Shown here: one piece after another, positions 8,495 through 26,037 of the stretch | How the letters are laid out: each line of letters starts with the position of its first letter | Position numbering within the stretch: position 1 is the stretch's first letter | Source of the DNA: a virus | Virus record (IMG/VR): IMGVR_UViG_3300023103_000012 | Span: 1-26,037 of that record | DNA: 26,037 nucleotides | Reading direction: 5' to 3' (one strand) | Program-made: the position numbers and the translations under genes | Notes under the pieces: model-generated | What the model was told of the DNA's origin: nothing | Database searches by the model: none | The model's input: only the letters and a program-made list of their open reading frames with translations

Positions 8495-9199
8495 ATGGGC
8501 GAAATCAATACGACATCAGCATTGGATAAGGCAGTCATTGGGGGTGATTTAAGCAATCTAAGTGATGCAGACAAACTCACCTTTTACAATAAAGTCTGTG
8601 AATCCATTGGTCTGAATCCCTTAACCAAGCCATTAGAGTTTATTCGCCTAAATGGCAAGTTAGTCTTGTATGCCCGTAAAGACGCCACCGAGCAACTGCG
8701 AAAGATAAATGGCATCTCGATAAAGATTATGGCCAGAGAGAAGGTCGATGATTTATATGTGGTGACCGCACAAGCCATTGATAGGCATGGTCGGACGGAT
8801 GAATCCATAGGCGCCATCTCATTAAAGGGATTAATGGGCGAAGCGGCTGCCAATGCCATTATGAAGGCAGAAACTAAAGCTAAAAGGCGCGTGACTTTAT
8901 CGGTCTCAGGTTTAGGGTTTTTGGATGAGTCTGAAGTGTCTGCCATTGCCGGTGCTAAGCCATTAGATTTTGATGTCAGTACCGGTAAGGTGAGGGACGA
9001 TAGGGAGAAAGCCCCCAGAATAAGTCATCAAGCTGAGGATATGCGAATTGCTTTACTTGAATTCCACACAAACCAGAGTGAAGTCGGCAATGAAACTGCG
9101 CTTGAACTTTGGCTAGGGTTAGATGAGGGCTTAAAGAGAGAGGTATGGGGGTGTTTAAGTACTGCTGAGCGATTTTGGCTCAAGAGTCTTAAGGCCTAG
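8495..9199 (+). CDS. Putative RecT/Redbeta-like single-strand annealing protein
   Basis: The 234-residue protein has a phage-recombination pattern: KLTFYNKVCESIGLNPLTKP, then GKLVLYARKDATEQLRKI, VVTAQAIDRHGRTDES and AETKAKRRVTLSVSGLGFLDE. I associate this layout with a phage protein group of RecT/Redbeta type, but distant homology searches would be needed to fix the superfamily. It would pair homologous single strands during recombination or circularisation. It is the first gene after the divergent promoter region, starts behind a G-run ribosome site, and is followed by an SSB gene, the usual partnership. No lambda-exonuclease-like gene is adjacent; the only other nuclease seen is the VRR-NUC protein at 12519. 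Confidence 0.6.
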   Translation: MGEINTTSALDKAVIGGDLSNLSDADKLTFYNKVCESIGLNPLTKPLEFIRLNGKLVLYARKDATEQLRKINGISIKIMAREKVDDLYVVTAQAIDRHGRTDESIGAISLKGLMGEAAANAIMKAETKAKRRVTLSVSGLGFLDESEVSAIAGAKPLDFDVSTGKVRDDREKAPRISHQAEDMRIALLEFHTNQSEVGNETALELWLGLDEGLKREVWGCLSTAERFWLKSLKA

Positions 9200-9238: not shown

Positions 9239-9631
9239 ATGGGTTCAGGGATTAACAAAGTTTTCTTACTAGGCAAGATTACTTATATCGAAGTTGTGCA
9301 TACGCCTGGAGGCTTAGTGGTCGCTAATCTTTCTATTGAAACCACTGAGGAGTGGAAAGACGCTCAAAAGAAAGATAAATCCAGAACAGAGGCGCATCGG
9401 GTGATTTTTTATAACAAGAAAGCAGAGCTGATAAAGGAATCTGGCCAAAAGGGGCACTACGTACATATTGAAGGCGCACTACGTACAGAAAAGTACGAAA
9501 AGGATGGCATTACTAAGTGGGCCACTAAGATTATCGGCTCCAACATTCAATTTCTGGATATCAAGGATGATTACAGCCAACTGAAAGTCACCCCCAACAA
9601 CTATTCAACTACTATGGATGTCCCATTCTGA
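9239..9631 (+). CDS. ssb: Single-stranded DNA-binding protein
   Basis: This 130-residue protein has the OB-fold layout of bacterial SSBs: NKVFLLGKI near the start, VANLSIETTEEW, then HRVIFYNKKAELIKE, GHYVHIEGALRTEKYEKDG and a closing TKIIGSNIQFLD. The end reads MDVPF, which mimics the acidic D-D-D-I-P-F tip through which SSB recruits RecQ, RecO or PriA, although only one acidic residue remains and the linker is short (about 20 residues). It lies 39 bases after the RecT-like gene and its stop shares one base with the next start (TGATG). It should coat single strands during recombination and replication. Confidence 0.9.
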   Translation: MGSGINKVFLLGKITYIEVVHTPGGLVVANLSIETTEEWKDAQKKDKSRTEAHRVIFYNKKAELIKESGQKGHYVHIEGALRTEKYEKDGITKWATKIIGSNIQFLDIKDDYSQLKVTPNNYSTTMDVPF

Positions 9632-9909
9632 TGGCTAAACGTCGCGCCCGGCACAGCTTATCCGAGAAGTCGCCGGCTCAGCATGCCTTTGATGAATCTA
9701 ATCTGGCCCTACAAGCAGCTAATGACGCGCTCGCTCGAGAAGGGATAGTGTACCCAGTCCAGAGAAAGGGAGAAGCTTTGCTTGATTACTTAGAGCGTCT
9801 TAATGCTTATAACGCCATTCAGCTGGCTTATTACTTTAAGGCACTAAGACCTCATGACGGGATTGAAAGGGTAGGAAGGGAAGCAAGACCTAAAGCTAAT
9901 GGCTGGTAG
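9631..9909 (+). CDS. Hypothetical protein coupled to ssb
   Basis: A 92-residue basic protein begins on the last base of the ssb stop (TGATG), so its translation is coupled to SSB. It starts KRRARHSLSEKS and contains helices (AQHAFDESNLALQAANDALAR, then ALLDYLERLNAYNAIQLAYYFK). No family is recognised. Its partnership with SSB and the annealing protein suggests a DNA-metabolism accessory, an inference from the operon alone. It is the last gene of the recombination set; a CACCCCCA hairpin follows. Confidence 0.55.
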   Translation: MAKRRARHSLSEKSPAQHAFDESNLALQAANDALAREGIVYPVQRKGEALLDYLERLNAYNAIQLAYYFKALRPHDGIERVGREARPKANGW

Positions 9910-9914
9910 AGAGT

Positions 9915-9950
9915 CACCCCCACTGGGAAATTAGGAAACCACTGGGGGTG
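9915..9950. repeat. Hairpin built from an inverted pair of the TGGGGGTG motif
   Basis: CACCCCCACTGG (9915-9926) pairs with CCACTGGGGGTG (9939-9950) apart from one C-C mismatch, over a 12-base loop. There is no T-tract, so terminator activity would be weak. Both arms are copies of the genome-wide octamer TGGGGGYG. Confidence 0.6.
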
Positions 9951-10127
9951 AATGCTAGGTCTACATAATCAGGGGTACTCATCATGCTTGATAGCAAATC
10001 ATCCTATCACTGGCTTTGATTTGAATAGCAACTCACTCACGGGACTAATTATATATAAAAATATTAGTTTGATAGCTTATGAAATAAGGGAAAATAGAGA
10101 TTAAGGAGAATAGGGGCGCCGAAATAT

Positions 10128-10157
10128 TTGATCTAAATCGAATTACCGCTTTATTAT
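10128..10157 (+). promoter_or_regulatory. Candidate sigma-70-like promoter for the leader/Rep transcript
   Basis: TTGATC (10128-10133) and TATTAT (10152-10157) are 18 bases apart. They match four and five of six consensus bases. Transcription would start near 10164 and give an untranslated leader of about 200 bases including the inverted repeat at 10183-10210. There is no independent support. Confidence 0.35.
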
Positions 10158-10182
10158 GCTCTGCAAGAAATTAGACAGATGA

Positions 10183-10210
10183 GAGCCTAACTCTTTTAAA
10201 AGCTAGGCTC
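10183..10210. repeat. Inverted repeat in the presumed Rep leader
   Basis: GAGCCTA (10183-10189) is the reverse complement of TAGGCTC (10204-10210), and between them lies the 10-bp palindrome CTTTTAAAAG (10193-10202). Together they could form a nearly continuous stem. It might act as a transcript stem-loop or as a protein-binding site. There is no U-run directly after it. Confidence 0.6.
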
Positions 10211-10365
10211 CACCTAGTACTTATTTTGCCAACAAATACACAGCGTGCACTTGTCAGTTTAATAAGTTAATAAGCAAGTTATGGAACCGACGACTACTAA
10301 TGTGAAGTTCCAAAACTTAAAACCACAGCACCCTAGTCACCTAGATAAATAGGAAACAAGAATAA

Positions 10366-10407
10366 ATGGCAAATATCCCCTCCAAACAAAAGAGAGGTAA
10401 TAAATGA
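10366..10407 (+). CDS. Leader mini-ORF 1 (13 aa)
   Basis: ATG at 10366 opens a 13-codon ORF (MANIPSKQKRGNK) whose TGA overlaps the next mini-ORF's start as ATGA (10404-10407). AGGA lies 11 bases upstream of the start, a weak site. The C-terminus is basic, like the ends of the next leaders (KKGDKKQT). I read it as the first of a coupled chain leading to the Rep-like gene. It may simply be untranslated. Confidence 0.4.
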   Translation: MANIPSKQKRGNK

Positions 10408-10469
10408 TGAACTTTCCTTCACTTACTTACCCCTACCCATTCAAGAAAGGAGATAAGAAGCAAACATGA
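10404..10469 (+). CDS. Leader mini-ORF 2 (21 aa), coupled to both neighbours
   Basis: This 21-codon ORF begins MMNFPSLTYPYPF and ends KKGDKKQT. It starts inside the previous stop (ATGA) and stops inside the next start (ATGA at 10466-10469). GAGAGG lies about seven bases upstream of its ATG. Its sequence is repeated 119 bases downstream in the second half of the next leader (start at 10523), showing tandem duplication. Its likely role is translational coupling or attenuation of the Rep-like protein. Confidence 0.5.
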   Translation: MMNFPSLTYPYPFKKGDKKQT

Positions 10470-10588
10470 GTCATGAGTTCCTTTACTTACACCGCCAACC
10501 CCTTAGAGGAGTCAATGTAAACATGAATTTAGATCATTCACTTAGCTCCACCCCACTCAAAAAGAAAGGAGATAAGAGGCAAACATGA
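10466..10588 (+). CDS. Leader mini-ORF 3 (40 aa, or 21 aa from the internal start at 10523)
   Basis: ATG at 10466 follows an AAAGGAG site (10446-10452) and opens a 40-codon ORF beginning MSHEFLYLHRQPLRG. It ends LKKKGDKRQT at a TGA overlapping the Rep-like start (ATGA, 10585-10588). An in-frame second ATG at 10523 has AGAGGAG 13 bases upstream and would make a 21-residue product (MNLDHSLSSTPLKKKGDKRQT is its whole length) paralogous to leader 2. The overlap implies that ribosomes finishing this leader can restart on the Rep-like gene, as in plasmid rep leaders. Confidence 0.5.
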   Translation: MSHEFLYLHRQPLRGVNVNMNLDHSLSSTPLKKKGDKRQT

Positions 10589-11649
10589 GTTTAGTTCCTT
10601 CACTTACCGGGGCAAGTTTACGTCCCAACTCAGCTCAATGCAACCCCCATCTAACTAATTTTCACCAATCTGCTTTGCTCAAAAATAGAGCAAACAAGAT
10701 TTCTGAGCCTAAGTACCCCTATCAATCCGTCCTATTATCGGATAGCCAAAAGGAATGGATGAGCAAGATACAGACTAAGGGCTTAGACCTCCCTGAGCAA
10801 TTTAGGATTGAACCCAATCAAGCTGCTCTGGGGGCGATTGAAGAGGCAAGGGTACTTATTTCCAATCATAAGAACTCCAAGCGACGCAACCCGCTTTTTT
10901 ATATTTTAAAATATTTGGCTTCTGGGATAGTCAAACACCTCACTTATAAAGTCAGACGCAAAAAGATAGCCACTGAAATAACTAAATATGGCTTAAGGCA
11001 GCGCAATGGAAACGTTTATTCGGTTCGCCAAGTCTCACGCTGGACCAATGCATTAGAGCAAGCTGGCTTGATTAAAAAAGATGAAAAAGATAGGTATCTG
11101 ATCGTCTATCGCCTGACAGAATTGGGTGAGTTGGTCTACTGGTTGCACTGTGAGAAGAATCAGAGTCATGTTCGAATAAACGTAGATGTGGCGGGGCCTG
11201 TAGAGGACAATTTCGAAAAAATGTCCCTATTCGATGAAAAAAATGTCCCCCTATACATACATAACTCTTACAAACAAAATATAAATACCCATTTAGAGAC
11301 TATTCAGGAGCATGACTTATACCGAGAGCAAAAAAGAGCCCAATTAGAGGCCAAATCGGAGCGTGCAATTCGATCTAAAAATGGGTTTTTAGTTTCTGAA
11401 AGGGAAGGCAAGAAAAAAACATTAGAGCCAGAGCTCAATCATCGACTGAAAAAGTTCTCTCCTGCTCAGCAAGACGAGTTAAGTTTGTGTTTAAACCGCT
11501 TGAGAGCGCCTGTATGGCAGAAAAACAATCTTCTTGAGGATTTGGCCGCCTCTGTCACCACGATGGCAGGAAAGCGCATACAGGTGGCAAACATCTCAGG
11601 CCTCCTAATTGCCAAGTACAAAAAGACATTTGGTGGAATGCGCCATTAG
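10585..11649 (+). CDS. Putative replication initiator with a winged-helix domain
   Basis: The 354-residue protein contains, at about residues 100-205, a helical region and a winged-helix-like unit: FYILKYLASGIVKHLTYKV, then GNVYSVRQVSRWTNALEQAGLI and a wing KDRYLIVYRLTELGELVYWL. The middle is charged and likely disordered, and the last ~65 residues form a second helical domain (FSPAQQDELSLCLNRLRAP...). A role in replication initiation is inferred from the winged helix, the upstream inverted-repeat and AT-rich region, and the coupled leader arrangement. No helicase or primase motif is present, so it would recruit host machinery. The start has AAAGGAG upstream and overlaps leader 3 by four bases. 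Alternative: a transcriptional regulator. Confidence 0.5.
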   Translation: MSLVPSLTGASLRPNSAQCNPHLTNFHQSALLKNRANKISEPKYPYQSVLLSDSQKEWMSKIQTKGLDLPEQFRIEPNQAALGAIEEARVLISNHKNSKRRNPLFYILKYLASGIVKHLTYKVRRKKIATEITKYGLRQRNGNVYSVRQVSRWTNALEQAGLIKKDEKDRYLIVYRLTELGELVYWLHCEKNQSHVRINVDVAGPVEDNFEKMSLFDEKNVPLYIHNSYKQNINTHLETIQEHDLYREQKRAQLEAKSERAIRSKNGFLVSEREGKKKTLEPELNHRLKKFSPAQQDELSLCLNRLRAPVWQKNNLLEDLAASVTTMAGKRIQVANISGLLIAKYKKTFGGMRH

Positions 11650-11675
11650 TTAAACGACACATCAAGGAGTTAGAT

Positions 11676-11891
11676 ATGAGTGAAGACATCAAGTTAGTTT
11701 GTGGGCTTTTGATTATCCCGTTGGGGGTGAGCCTGTATTGCTTAAGCGTCATGATAGAAAGCTTAAGGCAAGCCCGTAAGGAACGGTTAAGGAATCAGGT
11801 CAGATGGGTGTACCAAGCAGATGCCAAGGAAAGATGGCAGGAGCAGAACCCTCTAAAGGCGCGATTTGTTTGTAGTAAGTACGAAATTTGA
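11676..11891 (+). CDS. Small membrane protein of unknown function
   Basis: The 71-residue product has one hydrophobic segment at about residues 7-28 (LVCGLLIIPLGVSLYCLSVMI) and then a strongly basic, Arg/Lys-rich cytoplasmic-type tail (RQARKERLRNQVRW). Its AAGGAG ribosome site is well placed. It lies 26 bases after the Rep-like gene and is probably co-transcribed. A membrane anchor for a replication or exclusion function is conceivable, but there is no family match to support it. Confidence 0.6.
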   Translation: MSEDIKLVCGLLIIPLGVSLYCLSVMIESLRQARKERLRNQVRWVYQADAKERWQEQNPLKARFVCSKYEI

Positions 11892-12956: not shown

Positions 12957-13460
12957 GTGGCAAAAGGAAAGCATTACGGTGCAAAAATGAACAAAGATGA
13001 GCAAGTTTTGGAAAATGAGCGCCTTGCGTATGACCTTAGGGTTAAGGGTATGTCCCAGATGCAAATTGCCGAACGGTTGGGTCTAACTCAGCAGGCTATC
13101 TCAATCATACTTAAGCGCGCGACAAAAAAATATGCTTTACATTTTCTGAGTGACTTGGCAGTCAGTAAACATGAGCAGGTCGTTCAGTTAGAGCGGGTTG
13201 CTTCAGAGGCGATGCATGCATGGTATCAGAGCATGGAGAACTATGAGAAGACGCCAAATGGAGATCCAAGATATCTGCATGAGTTCCGTAAAGCCAAAGA
13301 AGACATCCGAAAGCTTTTAGGAATGGATTTGGTTGAGAAGGAGCTGTATGAGCACGACATCGTCAATCGAATTCAGATTGAGCTGATAGGATGCGAAATT
13401 AAACGAGAAGAGATTTCTCCTGTACAAGCTAAGGATAGCCTTGAAGACCCTATCAATTAG
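12957..13460 (+). CDS. terS: Terminase small subunit (DNA-binding)
   Basis: The 167-residue protein has a helix-turn-helix near the N-terminus (MSQMQIAERLGLTQQAISIILKRA), then an extended helical oligomerisation region and a charged C-terminus. Small terminases use this layout to bind the packaging site. I chose the GTG at 12957 because AGAGGA (12945-12950) lies six bases upstream of it; the TTG at 12951 directly abuts that site. It overlaps the large subunit gene by 20 bases, and the AAGGAT before the TTG start of the latter lies within this gene. Confidence 0.75.
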   Translation: MAKGKHYGAKMNKDEQVLENERLAYDLRVKGMSQMQIAERLGLTQQAISIILKRATKKYALHFLSDLAVSKHEQVVQLERVASEAMHAWYQSMENYEKTPNGDPRYLHEFRKAKEDIRKLLGMDLVEKELYEHDIVNRIQIELIGCEIKREEISPVQAKDSLEDPIN

Positions 13461-15327
13461 TTGTACGCCCCCACAGGCTGAGTTTCATGCCTTGCCCCAT
13501 AAGTACACGGCTTTCGTAGGAGGGATGGGTTGTGTTCGCGACAGCACCCCCATTGCTACTTCAACGGGTTATGTAGAAATCGCTGACTTATGCGCCGGAG
13601 ATGATGTTCTAAGCTGGAACGAGATAGATCAACAATTCCAGTTCGCGCCAACAAGTGGTGCGTTCCCAAAAGGTAAATCTAGTCTTTATCGAGTCGTCAC
13701 CACACAAGGAGAGTTTGTCGCAAATAGGCATCATCAAGTTCGGGCTCCAAACGGTACGTATCGACCCCTGGCCAGCTTGAAGGTTGGAAGTTGGTTAAGC
13801 GCAGGTTCAAAAGACCTTGACCTTCTCCAGTCCGGTGTGGAGATTTCTCGGATATGGTCGCACGAAGGTGATTTAAATTACTGGGAAAGACTCGCAAACT
13901 CTCTGGGTGATTATGAAGAGTTAGGCCATGAATCTGATCGAGAATTTCACCAGGCTATCCATAACGCTGTGGCTTTTGGTCAACGATTTGGGGGTGCAAG
14001 GTCTTTAGGGGTGCTACCTGTTGGCTTATTGATGCCAAAAGTGGTTACCCCCATTCAAGTTACTCGCATTGAGAGACTAAAAACCAAAGAATGGTACTGG
14101 GATATGCATGTTGCTGGAAATAATAATTATCTTACGCAAGATGGGGTGATTCATCACAATAGTGGCAAAACTGAAACCATGTGCAATCAGGCCATTATCG
14201 ACGCCTTCCATTCCCCAGACGCCTTAATCAGTCTCTATGCGCCCACATATGACCTGGTTTCCCTTATCACCGCCCCCAGGCTGCTAGAGAAGCTGGATAA
14301 ATATGAAATTGGTTATAGGTATAACAAAACTAAGAACTACATTGAGACCACCCATAAGCAAACAGGCAATTTTATCTTACGCACACTGGATAAGCCCTCG
14401 CGTATTGTCGGATATCAAGCTTATCGGTCCCATATCGATGAGATAGACACCTTAGGAATGAATCAAGCTCAAGAAGCTTGGCAAAAAATTATCGCCAGAA
14501 CCAGACAGGTTCCTGAACGAGGGAGTAATCCACACTTTAATCGCGTGTCGGTTTATACCACCCCTGAAGGATTTAAATTTACTTACGATAGATGGGTAAA
14601 AAGAAAGAGTCCTGCCTATGGGATGGTTCAAGCATCCAGCCGAACCAACCCTTACTTGCCGAGCGACTATGTTGAATCACTCCTGGAATCTTACCCACCA
14701 GAGCTGAGGTCTGCTTACATTGATGGTATGTTCGTTAACTTAACCAGTGGGACGGTCTATAAGTCTTACAATCGAGCCGCCCATAATACTAATGAGCGCA
14801 TTAAGCCTCATGAAGTGCTCTATATAGGCTGTGACTTTAACGTCACTAAGCAAGCCGCCACCATCTACGTGAGACGAGACGGTGGAAGAACTTGGCATGC
14901 GGTGGCTGAGCTCGTGAACATGTATGACACACCCGAAATGATTCAAATAATCAAAGAACGTTATCCAACTAATCGCATTATTATGTATCCAGACGCCAGT
15001 GGTCAGGCAAGAAAGACGGTTAATGCGCATTCATCTGATATTGTATTGCTCAAGCAGGCTAACTTTGAAGTCAGAGTGCGACCTACTAACCCTTCCGTGC
15101 GGGATAGAATCAATGCTATGAACACCGCGCTCTCAAGTGGAATGGTCTTCATCAATGTGAATGCCTGTCCTAATGTGGCCCAAGCTTTAGAGCAGCAAGC
15201 TTATAATGCCAATGGTGAGCCAGATAAGCAGTCGGGTAAGGACCATCAAAACGATGCGACGACTTATCCAATTGCTTACGAGATTCCCATTCGTAAAACA
15301 ATGCCTACTTTGAACGTTAGTTTTTAA
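13441..15327 (+). CDS. terL: Terminase large subunit interrupted by an intein
   Basis: The 628-codon gene encodes a 418-residue packaging motor once an intein (residues 31-240) is removed. The joined Walker A reads GGMG-SGKTE; Walker B with the catalytic Glu is HIDEID (residues 331-336). The nuclease half shows CDFNVT, then MYPDASG and a closing KDHQNDA. It translocates and cuts DNA at the portal. The TTG start overlaps the small subunit gene and has AAGGAT five bases upstream; no ATG is available before the Walker motif. Without splicing the ATP-binding loop is broken, so packaging depends on splicing. It precedes the portal gene. Confidence 0.92.
   Translation: MKTLSISCTPPQAEFHALPHKYTAFVGGMGCVRDSTPIATSTGYVEIADLCAGDDVLSWNEIDQQFQFAPTSGAFPKGKSSLYRVVTTQGEFVANRHHQVRAPNGTYRPLASLKVGSWLSAGSKDLDLLQSGVEISRIWSHEGDLNYWERLANSLGDYEELGHESDREFHQAIHNAVAFGQRFGGARSLGVLPVGLLMPKVVTPIQVTRIERLKTKEWYWDMHVAGNNNYLTQDGVIHHNSGKTETMCNQAIIDAFHSPDALISLYAPTYDLVSLITAPRLLEKLDKYEIGYRYNKTKNYIETTHKQTGNFILRTLDKPSRIVGYQAYRSHIDEIDTLGMNQAQEAWQKIIARTRQVPERGSNPHFNRVSVYTTPEGFKFTYDRWVKRKSPAYGMVQASSRTNPYLPSDYVESLLESYPPELRSAYIDGMFVNLTSGTVYKSYNRAAHNTNERIKPHEVLYIGCDFNVTKQAATIYVRRDGGRTWHAVAELVNMYDTPEMIQIIKERYPTNRIIMYPDASGQARKTVNAHSSDIVLLKQANFEVRVRPTNPSVRDRINAMNTALSSGMVFINVNACPNVAQALEQQAYNANGEPDKQSGKDHQNDATTYPIAYEIPIRKTMPTLNVSF
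13531..14160 (+). other. Intein in the terminase Walker A loop (Cys1...His-His-Asn/Ser+1), no endonuclease seen
   Basis: Residues 31-240 form a 210-residue intein. Block A begins CVRDSTPIATSTG; block B is FVANRHHQV, where the usual T..H reads N..H; block F is WDMHVAGNNNYLTQDG; block G is VIHHN, followed by Ser of the Walker motif. No LAGLIDADG or HNH endonuclease motif is visible in the ~100-residue region between B and F, which may be a remnant. Insertion inside the P-loop is typical of inteins in ATPases. The genome-wide octamer also occurs inside (13545 and 13989). Confidence 0.9.
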
Positions 15328-16843: not shown

Positions 16844-18409
16844 ATGGCCAGTTACTTAACCTTCCTGCGAGACGCTTCCACCCGCCACAGTGTATTTGTG
16901 GAGCGTTTTGCCGGCGGGCAACTCAAACAAATCTTGCCCTATCTAGAGCGGGCCCGAAAAGTCACGGCAGCTGAATTGGCGGGGAAAAATATCAGCGCTA
17001 TGTCGCGTGCTAGGTTGCAAAAGATGTATGGCGAGATTGAGGACCAGCTCAATGCTGTCTATAACGCGATGGGGGTTAAGCTCACGTCGGGGCTTAAACC
17101 CTTTGCCCAGTATGAGGCTGAGTTCACTGGTCGGATGCTGGGGGAGGCGATAGATATCAATTTTGCAATTCCATCGCCAAACCAAGTTCAGGCAGCGGCT
17201 TTCTCTAGACCAATGGATTTACTGACCGATAGGATTGATGTCGAGGGGGCAATTGAAGAGTTTGGCAAGAAAAAAAGCTCTGAGATTGTCAAAGTCATCA
17301 AGAACGGCGTCATTTTAGGTAAGACATCGGCTCAGTTGGTGGATGATGTGAGCTTTGTAACCAATAAAGTGCAAAAAAATCACGCAGAGAGCTTAGTCCG
17401 CACTGTGACCGCCTTCATCTCATCTGAAGCCCGGCGGGAAGTGATTAATGCAAACAAAGATATCGTAGAGAGGGAGCAATGGGTCTCAACCCTTGATGGC
17501 CGCACGACGGCAGAATGCTTTCTGGGTGAGACGATGGTGTTTAACCCCGCAGAGACGCTGACTCTTTATCGAGCAAACTATGCCGGTGACATTGTCACGA
17601 TGACGACCAAGGAAGGTAGGGTATTAAAAGGCACCCCCAATCACCCCATCCTGACAGATAAGGGTTATGTCCCATTAGGTAAGCTCATGCTGGGTTTTAA
17701 AGTTGCCTTAGGCGTCAATGAAGTCGCTTTACCCGAAAATGTCCCCTATCAATCCTTAAAAGAGCTCTATAAACGACCGGGCAATCTAAATTTGCCCGTG
17801 CGGACGAAAAAATGTCCCTCAAATACGGATTTTGGGGGCGATGGCGCATCGATGTATGGTGAGTTAGAAGCCTATAGCAATCTAACTATGGTCCAGAGCG
17901 CAGCGCCGCTCCCCCCAACTGGAAATACATTTCAGCAGGTGGTCAGGCTAAGGCGAGAGTTTATGAATACAGAGGTCTATACCTTGAGTTCAACGTTGGG
18001 CTTTTACTTTGCCAATGGGATAGTCGTGAAGAACTGTCAGGCTTTAGATGGCCAGACGTTTGAGAAAGGTGAAGGGCCGCAGACACCATTGCACTGGGGG
18101 TGTCGCTCCACGCGTATCCCAATCGTGAGTCCTGAATATCAGCTCGATGTTGAGGGGCAGTTTACTCGGCCAGCTGTGGGGCCTGACGGTGCAGAGGATG
18201 ATGTAAAGAGCAATGCAACCTATAACTCTTGGCTCAAGACTCAACCTGCCGCATTTCAAGATGAGGTCTTGGGGGCGACTAGAGGCCAATTGTTTAGGGA
18301 CGGCGGTCTGTCAGTTAAAGATTTTGTAGATGAGAACTATCGGCAAATATCTCTTGAGGAATTAAGAGAGAAGGAAAGTATGGCCTTTGAAAGAGCGGGT
18401 CTTAAATAA
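16844..18409 (+). CDS. MuF-family minor head protein interrupted by an intein
   Basis: The 521-codon gene encodes a 348-residue host protein plus a 173-residue intein (residues 225-397). The host portion has a helical N-terminus (about 1-200) and the MuF motif STLDGRTTAE-CQALDGQTF with a later PLHWGCRST, the conserved core of SPP1 gp7/Mu gpF proteins. These minor head proteins bind the portal and DNA end or are ejected. The intein cuts this core exactly before the conserved Cys. The gene starts two bases after the portal stop, implying coupled translation. The C-terminal part after the core is Glu-rich and helical. Confidence 0.88.
   Translation: MASYLTFLRDASTRHSVFVERFAGGQLKQILPYLERARKVTAAELAGKNISAMSRARLQKMYGEIEDQLNAVYNAMGVKLTSGLKPFAQYEAEFTGRMLGEAIDINFAIPSPNQVQAAAFSRPMDLLTDRIDVEGAIEEFGKKKSSEIVKVIKNGVILGKTSAQLVDDVSFVTNKVQKNHAESLVRTVTAFISSEARREVINANKDIVEREQWVSTLDGRTTAECFLGETMVFNPAETLTLYRANYAGDIVTMTTKEGRVLKGTPNHPILTDKGYVPLGKLMLGFKVALGVNEVALPENVPYQSLKELYKRPGNLNLPVRTKKCPSNTDFGGDGASMYGELEAYSNLTMVQSAAPLPPTGNTFQQVVRLRREFMNTEVYTLSSTLGFYFANGIVVKNCQALDGQTFEKGEGPQTPLHWGCRSTRIPIVSPEYQLDVEGQFTRPAVGPDGAEDDVKSNATYNSWLKTQPAAFQDEVLGATRGQLFRDGGLSVKDFVDENYRQISLEELREKESMAFERAGLK
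17516..18034 (+). other. Intein/BIL-type Hint element in the MuF core, ending Lys-Asn before Cys+1
   Basis: The element starts with Cys225 (CFLGETMVFNP). Block B reads LKGTPNHPILTDKGY with the expected T..H. The C-terminal motif is EVYTLSSTLGFYFANGIVVKN, followed by Cys398 of the host motif. The final Asn and the +1 Cys nucleophile are intact, but the penultimate His is Lys396, a position normally His in inteins. Some natural inteins tolerate substitutions here; splicing should be possible but may be slower. No endonuclease domain is visible in 173 residues. Confidence 0.88.
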
Positions 18410-24620: not shown

Positions 24621-26037
24621 ATGGCGGTTTCAACAGTTGCAAAGCTTGTATTAGAGCTCAGTGCTAGCTCGGAAAAGCTAACAAAAGATTTATCTAAGTC
24701 CGAAAGCGCAATCTCGACATTCGCTGATAGTGCGAAAAAAAAGTTTGCTCTTATTGGAACAGCCGTGAGCGCGCTCACCTCATTAATAGCAGCCGGAGGT
24801 TTAACCGCTGCTATATTAAACAGCGTAAACAGCTTAGATAACATTGGTGATACCGCCCAATCGCTTGGCATTGCCACGAAAGAACTGCAGCGGCTGCAAT
24901 TTCAGGCTGAGCAGGCTGGCTCTTCTGCTGAGGGTATCGTTGGGGCTTTAGGTCTCATGCAAAATGCCATTGGCGAAGCAGCCTCCGGGAACGAGTCTTT
25001 AGTTAAAACTTTTGCCTCTCTAGGGCTTAATGTAGAGAGTTTAAAGAATTTAAGGCCTGAGCAGCAGTTCAGGGCAATTGCTGATGGCATCAGGAATATC
25101 AATAACCAATCCGACCAAGCCAATATTGCCCGTGGCATCTTCGGTCGAGGTGGCATTCAACAGCTTAATCTTCTTAGAAGTAACTTAGACGAGACATCTG
25201 CCACCTTTGATAGATTGGGCTTAGGGATTACAGAAAGCCAAAGTCAAAATGTCGACGCTTTCGATAAGACCAGGAATGCCTTAGATGCGGTATTTGGGAA
25301 CTTTAAAGAAACGGTGGCAGCAGAAGCCATTACTGGATTTACGGTCATTGGCGAAAGAGTTTTAGACTTAATCCAAAATATGGGTGGCTTACAGACAGTT
25401 GCTACAAATGTAGCAGCCAGCATTGTAGGTGGGCTTGCTTCAATTTCTTCAGCTTTTGATTTTGTCAGTGATAGTGTCAGTTTTTTACTTCAGACATTTA
25501 GATTAGGTCAATTAGCCGTGGGAAACTTAACGTTGGCGATCGATGAATACTCTTCAGCGGCCAGAAATGCACCGAGCCTTAATGAGATAGCAGCCATCAA
25601 TGCAAAAGCCAATACCCCTGAGAACTTGGCCAGGTCAGATTTTAATCCTCTAAAGTTTAAGCCTTATGAAGGTAAGTCCAAAGAAGAATATGCGACTGAA
25701 TTTGCCTTAAGGCGCCAAGAGATAGACCAGATTAATGAGCTGTTCACGGCCACAGAAGCGAATCGAGGCACTGGCAAATCAGGTGTTACCTCAGCATTGG
25801 AAGAGATACAGGCTAGATTAAAGGCAACAGGGGACGAAGCTAAGGCGACCAAACAAGTCTTAGATGATTTAGCTTCAAACTCTATGGCTAATTTAAGCGC
25901 CGCTAATCCTAATATGACTTCACCGACTAAAACTGGGGGCGGTTATGGCATCATCACGGACTCTGCCACCGGCCAAACGTATACGACTGGCAATGTCCCC
26001 AATGGGGCTTTGCCACAAAATATTAATATTACTGTAT
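24621..26037 (+). CDS. Tail tape measure protein, N-terminal part (continues at 1-223)
   Basis: The gene starts at the base after the chaperone stop and runs off the window end; its last part is at 1-223. The joined protein has 503 residues. Features are a polar coiled N-terminus (AKLVLELSASSEKLTKDL), a hydrophobic span at about 42-66 (LIGTAVSALTSLIAAGGLTAA) and RGIFGRGGIQQLNLL, a pattern common in tape measures. A second hydrophobic stretch lies around 265-294 and helical repeats follow. At roughly 0.15 nm per residue it predicts a short tail of about 75 nm. Identity follows from its place after G/GT and its composition. Confidence 0.85.
   Translation, partial: MAVSTVAKLVLELSASSEKLTKDLSKSESAISTFADSAKKKFALIGTAVSALTSLIAAGGLTAAILNSVNSLDNIGDTAQSLGIATKELQRLQFQAEQAGSSAEGIVGALGLMQNAIGEAASGNESLVKTFASLGLNVESLKNLRPEQQFRAIADGIRNINNQSDQANIARGIFGRGGIQQLNLLRSNLDETSATFDRLGLGITESQSQNVDAFDKTRNALDAVFGNFKETVAAEAITGFTVIGERVLDLIQNMGGLQTVATNVAASIVGGLASISSAFDFVSDSVSFLLQTFRLGQLAVGNLTLAIDEYSSAARNAPSLNEIAAINAKANTPENLARSDFNPLKFKPYEGKSKEEYATEFALRRQEIDQINELFTATEANRGTGKSGVTSALEEIQARLKATGDEAKATKQVLDDLASNSMANLSAANPNMTSPTKTGGGYGIITDSATGQTYTTGNVPNGALPQNINITV
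25910..26037 (+). repeat. Terminal overlap with bases 1-128
   Basis: Bases 25910-26035 are identical to 1-126. The next base differs (a at 26036, c at 127) and the last agrees. The difference is synonymous (GTA versus GTC). The overlap sits inside the tape measure gene, so it looks like circular assembly redundancy more than a physical end. Confidence 0.9.

Follow-up and report, generated by a model that had tools for sequence, protein, structure and literature searches.

A chain of three overlapping mini-ORFs leads into the putative replication gene at 10585–11649 of this phage, each mini-ORF ending in a TGA that lies within the ATGA of the next start. The chain is real and statistically unusual, and a duplicated coupled leader is a plausible description of it from the sequence. 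That the duplicated start region of gene 10585 gives coupled leader translation is the reading that we prefer, tentatively and with considerable doubt; a by-product of duplication without regulatory role is a close rival.

Genome context

The window analyzed here is an entire virus record of 26,037 bases. The first 128 bases (1–128) recur as its last 128 (25910–26037), with one mismatch, at position 127. Although the collection lists the record as linear, this terminal repeat makes a complete circular phage genome of about 25.9 kb probable. The closest relatives, L002 and L083, are 71% identical in the portal and 83% in the capsid, with a contig that ends before the rep region, and a further relative, L164, shares 90.6% nucleotide identity over 5.2 kb of the capsid region only. 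A portal alignment scan of genomes returned no match. The terminase large-subunit ORF (13441–15327) carries an intein inside its Walker A motif (GGMG, then C...HN, then SGKT), which gives a weak Intein_splicing match over residues 73–240. The MuF-like protein (16844–18409) holds a second, intein-like insert at about residues 234–397; its counterpart in L002 (1584–2642) lacks the insert and presents an empty site.

The region of interest follows genes for an annealing-type protein, an SSB and a further early protein. Downstream of gene 10585 lie an AlpA-like regulator, a VRR-NUC nuclease and the terminase.

8495–9199: annealing-type protein, the type judged by neighborhood and position
9239–9631: SSB (phrog_44, E 3.5e-24)
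9631–9909: early gene
9910–10365: stretch of 456 nt without a clear gene, from the last early gene to the leader; candidate origin or promoter region
10585–11649, plus strand: orphan protein of 354 aa, possibly a replication initiator with a winged helix by sub-threshold profile matches

The product of 8495–9199 has no PHROG or Pfam family match and, by its position, is probably a recombination or annealing protein. Hundreds of viral-contig relatives of this protein were found at 48–68% identity, mostly over the first ~150–200 residues. The gene-free stretch contains an AT-rich 60-mer at 10046 (82% A+T), one promoter-like site (10128–10157) and inverted repeats at 9914–9951 and 10183–10210. 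The 3' arm of the latter is common to a terminator-like stem at 10202–10218. The stretch is a candidate origin or attenuator.

The earlier note had called gene 10585 Rep-like. Its position after the annealing-type protein and SSB, together with a possible winged helix, makes it probably the replication initiator of the phage; the label itself is unproven. Replication-initiator and helix-turn-helix profiles match the 354-aa protein at E 0.007–0.06, below the curated cut-offs where these exist. No homologue was found in phages and plasmids by tblastn, in viral contigs with three different pattern sets, in genome contigs, in 55 virus records, or among all ORFs of about 200 loci (phmmer --max); pattern-based scans catch close relatives only, and distant homologues may therefore exist. 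An AF2 model built without an alignment was discarded (pLDDT 37).

A chain of mini-ORFs joined by ATGA

The three mini-ORFs, described in the earlier note from their starts and ATGA overlaps, lie exactly where it placed them.

10366–10407, plus strand: mini-ORF 1, 13 aa, MANIPSKQKRGNK then stop; TGA within the ATGA of 10404
10404–10469, plus strand: mini-ORF 2, 21 aa, MMNFPSLTYPYPFKKGDKKQT then stop; TGA within the ATGA of 10466
10466–10588, plus strand: mini-ORF 3, 40 aa, MSHEFLYLHRQPLRGVNVNMNLDHSLSSTPLKKKGDKRQT then stop; TGA within the ATGA of 10585
10506–10520, plus strand: strong SD (GAGGAG) followed 3 nt later by a start-stop, ATG TAA (10515–10520), inside mini-ORF 3

The junctions are therefore at 10404, 10466 and 10585, the last being the start of the gene, and the leader shows one of the marks of a coupled leader peptide, a short ORF with a stop that overlaps the next gene's start. 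Ordinary neighboring genes of the phage are joined by ATGA overlaps as well (12109/12297, 21884/22240 and 22240/22629). Additional starts complicate the layout. Mini-ORF 2 has two ATGs, at 10404 and 10407; mini-ORF 3 has a second in-frame start at 10523, which is also the next ATG past the start-stop, and its stretch holds a competing frame at 10473–10520. Ribosomes initiating at one of the competing starts (10473, 10515, 10523) would interrupt the chain or skip past it. Programmed -1 frameshifting from mini-ORF 3 into the gene was considered and rejected: a TAA at 10573–10575 closes the frame of the gene, and no slippery site follows it.

Repeated copies of the start region

The leader contains repeats, the best preserved of which is a 29-nt block, AAGAAAGGAGATAAGARGCAAACATGAGT, present twice at an offset of 119 with one mismatch (28/29, 97%).

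10443–10471, plus strand: 29-nt core, copy A, with SD GGAG (10449–10452) followed by ATGA 10466; 97% identical to copy B
10562–10590, plus strand: 29-nt core, copy B, with SD GGAG (10568–10571) and GAGG (10576–10579) followed by ATGA 10585
10407–10491, plus strand: duplicated block, upstream copy, with the starts 10407 and 10466 (alignment, shuffles)
10523–10608, plus strand: duplicated block, downstream copy, with the start 10523 and the gene start 10585 (alignment, shuffles)

A further repeat of 26 nt occurs at 10519 and 10581 (88% identical, offset 62), and a TTCCTTYACTTAC-type motif recurs at 10412, 10476 and 10593, with TCATTCACTTA in the 10523 copy. In pairwise tests from which the 29-nt core was left out (2,000 shuffles each), the similarity of the upstream block to the 10523 unit was reached in 13/2000 shuffles for the 5' part and 0/2000 for the whole unit, and that of the 10523 unit to the 10585 unit in 0/2000. 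The repeat reported previously as a tandem duplication of ~119 bp is thus real, with 119 being the offset and clear homology covering ~85 nt, about 10407–10491 versus 10523–10608 by alignment. Likewise, the start units are indeed repeated, in about four degenerate copies (at 10407, 10466, 10523 and 10585) and not the two first proposed, and the ATG of the first unit that is homologous to the start of the gene is 10407, not 10404.

The simplest description of the repeat is about four degenerate copies of the gene's own start region (SD, ATGA, TTCCTTCACTTAC). Three copies encode similar peptide starts, MNFPSLT, MNLDHSLS and MSLVPSLT, and the N-terminus of the 354-aa protein, MSLVPSLTG, is similar to the beginnings of the leader peptides. 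The lengths of mini-ORF 2 read from 10407 and of its copy, 10523–10588, are equal modulo 3, and both frames have stayed open.

Ribosome sites

SD tetramers are enriched in 10366–10584, where 9 occur against 3.4 expected, a count reached in 26/2000 shuffles. Predicted duplex energies at 10404, 10466, 10515/10523 and 10585 range from -7.2 to -8.7, placing these SDs in the best tenth among 598 plus-strand ATGs and about matching the SDs of the phage's genes in predicted strength. The site of mini-ORF 1 is weak (-4.2 kcal/mol, spacing ~10), and mini-ORF 2 has the SD AGAGG directly upstream (GAGG at 10394). The GGAG of the repeated core stands 13 nt from the ATG, versus a usual spacing in the phage of 4–8, and a GAGG at 5 nt from the ATG occurs only ahead of 10585. 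Strong ribosome sites in combination with ATGA junctions fit coupled translation.

Chance, unit length and a possible duplication by-product

A chain of depth 3 ending at the gene arose in 0/5,000 dinucleotide shuffles of the leader, chains of depth 2 in 20 and chains of depth 1 in 413, the shuffles disregarding the duplication. The survey set of 5.05 Mb (both strands) combined the window with related phage loci and contained 2,106 ORFs of at least 150 codons that start with ATG-A. Two of these, gene 10585 and L121, are preceded by depth-3 chains, the L121 chain sitting in an apparently coding stretch, and no second non-genic chain of this depth was found in the set.

The start-to-start distances are 38, 62 and 119, all of which equal 2 mod 3, and a frame left open between ATGA units spaced in this way necessarily runs into the next TGA. 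With starts and ATGAs held fixed, as a duplication would leave them, the chance of a single frame staying open is 38%, 31% or 12%, depending on the frame. The ATGA chain is unlikely to be due to chance, yet it is less remarkable than at first impression, because the shuffles disregard the duplication and the 2 mod 3 lengths force the junctions wherever the frames are open.

This arithmetic favors the by-product reading, in which replication slippage copied the start region, the gene initiates from its own SD, and the copies upstream of it are no more than relics or mild decoys. Unit lengths of 62 and 119, both 2 mod 3, would by themselves bring the stop of any open copy into the next ATGA. The degeneracy of the copies, which include indels, points the same way, as do the motif of the 10466 copy, which lies in another frame, shifted relative to the gene's own start, and the unexceptional RNA structure described below. 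Against it, the SD-ATGA core still matches at 28/29 positions although the adjoining parts have drifted, the three frames are jointly open in just 1.5% of cases with starts and ATGAs fixed, and the most upstream link, from 10366 to 10404, lies outside the duplication. We regard this reading as a serious possibility that, on balance, we doubt.

RNA structure and possible binding sites

The predicted fold of 10340–10640 is indistinguishable from shuffles (z = 0.08), that of 10165–10640 gives z -1.6, and local hairpins at the individual SDs do not clearly outscore shuffles. With no fold signal above shuffles, the SD of the gene is not evidently masked; given its own SDs, gene 10585 may be translated without coupling. 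An excess of C, as a Rho site might show, is modest; the C/G ratio reaches 2.9 at 10480 and 3.1 at 10620.

Replication genes often lie beside their origin, and the repeats could be DNA or RNA binding sites, an autoregulation operator or part of an origin, with the open frames incidental. The recurrence of the TTCCTTYACTTAC motif even out of frame (10476 copy) and the gene-free, AT-rich stretch upstream are consistent with this. However, the units are unevenly spaced (57/62/62), the motif is degenerate, the best-kept part is the SD-ATG and not the motif, and no DnaA-box match occurs in 9900–11700. The repeats, with degenerate units of 57–62 nt, are not the regular 17–22-bp direct repeats of ordinary iteron origins, and the binding-site reading is unlikely.

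Regulation by tap and repY rests on antisense RNA, on RNA structure that masks the rep SD and on a pseudoknot, and none of these features was found above chance in the leader. No minus-strand promoter-like site occurs in 9800–11000 by a simple sigma-70 consensus, a scan that would miss other promoter types, and the leader region has no Rfam match; by these two approaches, the antisense RNA of the R1 and IncI/IncB leaders was not found. True copy control of this type, in which the leader, unless silenced by an antisense RNA, is translated and thereby exposes the rep SD, is accordingly not supported and highly improbable, despite a layout (leader ORF overlapping the gene) like that of R1 tap-repA, IncB repB-repA and SGI1 S004-repA (PMC7826253) and one weak predicted helix inside mini-ORF 3, CUUAGCUCC/GGAGAUAAG, that would pair the gene's SD over GGAG 10568–10571 and scores no better than shuffles (z -0.13).

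Comparison with known coupled leaders

The earlier note had likened the region to the coupled leaders of plasmid replication genes. The coupled-leader design itself finds support in the ATGA junctions, the strong SDs before most starts and the duplicated start units; neither antisense control nor an SD-masking structure is evident here. Termination-reinitiation at ATGA is documented between ordinary genes (PMC6728339); the junction there is alike, but it normally joins full genes, whereas here it joins repeated mini-ORFs. In the Gifsy-1 prophage, the stop of the leader orf45 overlaps the start of anrP as AUGA; anrP translation requires the leader, and the coupling has been shown by mutation (PMC4825925). 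As here, this is a phage leader ORF with two in-frame starts and an AUGA overlap. It differs in having one leader ORF, control by the structure of the IsrK RNA and no start-site repeats, and in its downstream gene, anrP rather than a presumed replication gene.

An early stop in the SGI1 leader S004 abolishes RepA synthesis, for which R1 tap-repA is cited as a parallel (PMC7826253). Both have a short ORF overlapping the downstream gene, in the present case the putative Rep. However, both have a single leader, with a needed stem-loop in SGI1 or an antisense RNA in R1, in contrast to the three linked ORFs without significant structure described here. In Pseudomonas, the short ORF repI is likewise apparently coupled to the rep gene repJ, again as a single leader, and replication was apparently unaffected when most of the leader was deleted in frame (PMC5304414), a caution against assuming that a leader has a function. 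In the literature searched, no paper was found on a chain of such leaders derived from repeated start sites, which is weak evidence of absence. The 29-nt core, taken as an exact DNA pattern, was not found in viral contigs.

Proposed mechanism and implications

In the coupled-leader reading that we tentatively prefer, the start region of gene 10585, with its purine-rich SD, ATGA and first codons, would have been tandemly duplicated several times. Ribosomes would enter at the upstream SDs, make the short peptides, terminate at each TGA and reinitiate at the ATG that overlaps it. Leader translation would thus supply ribosomes to gene 10585, whose own translation would in part depend on it; the leader peptides themselves would probably not be needed. 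A bolder version, which we consider quite unlikely, is a multi-step ribosome relay in which the copies of the start region serve as a series of coupled leaders and together determine how much of the phage replication protein is made, with slippage in the number of ~60-nt copies tuning that dose.

If the chain is not used, it provides a caution that tandem repeats of a length equal to 2 mod 3 yield leader chains that look designed. If it is used, it would show that duplication of a gene's start region can create a coupled leader for that same gene, the ATGA junctions being a consequence of the unit length, and phages would gain a device for dosing their replication protein like that of plasmids.
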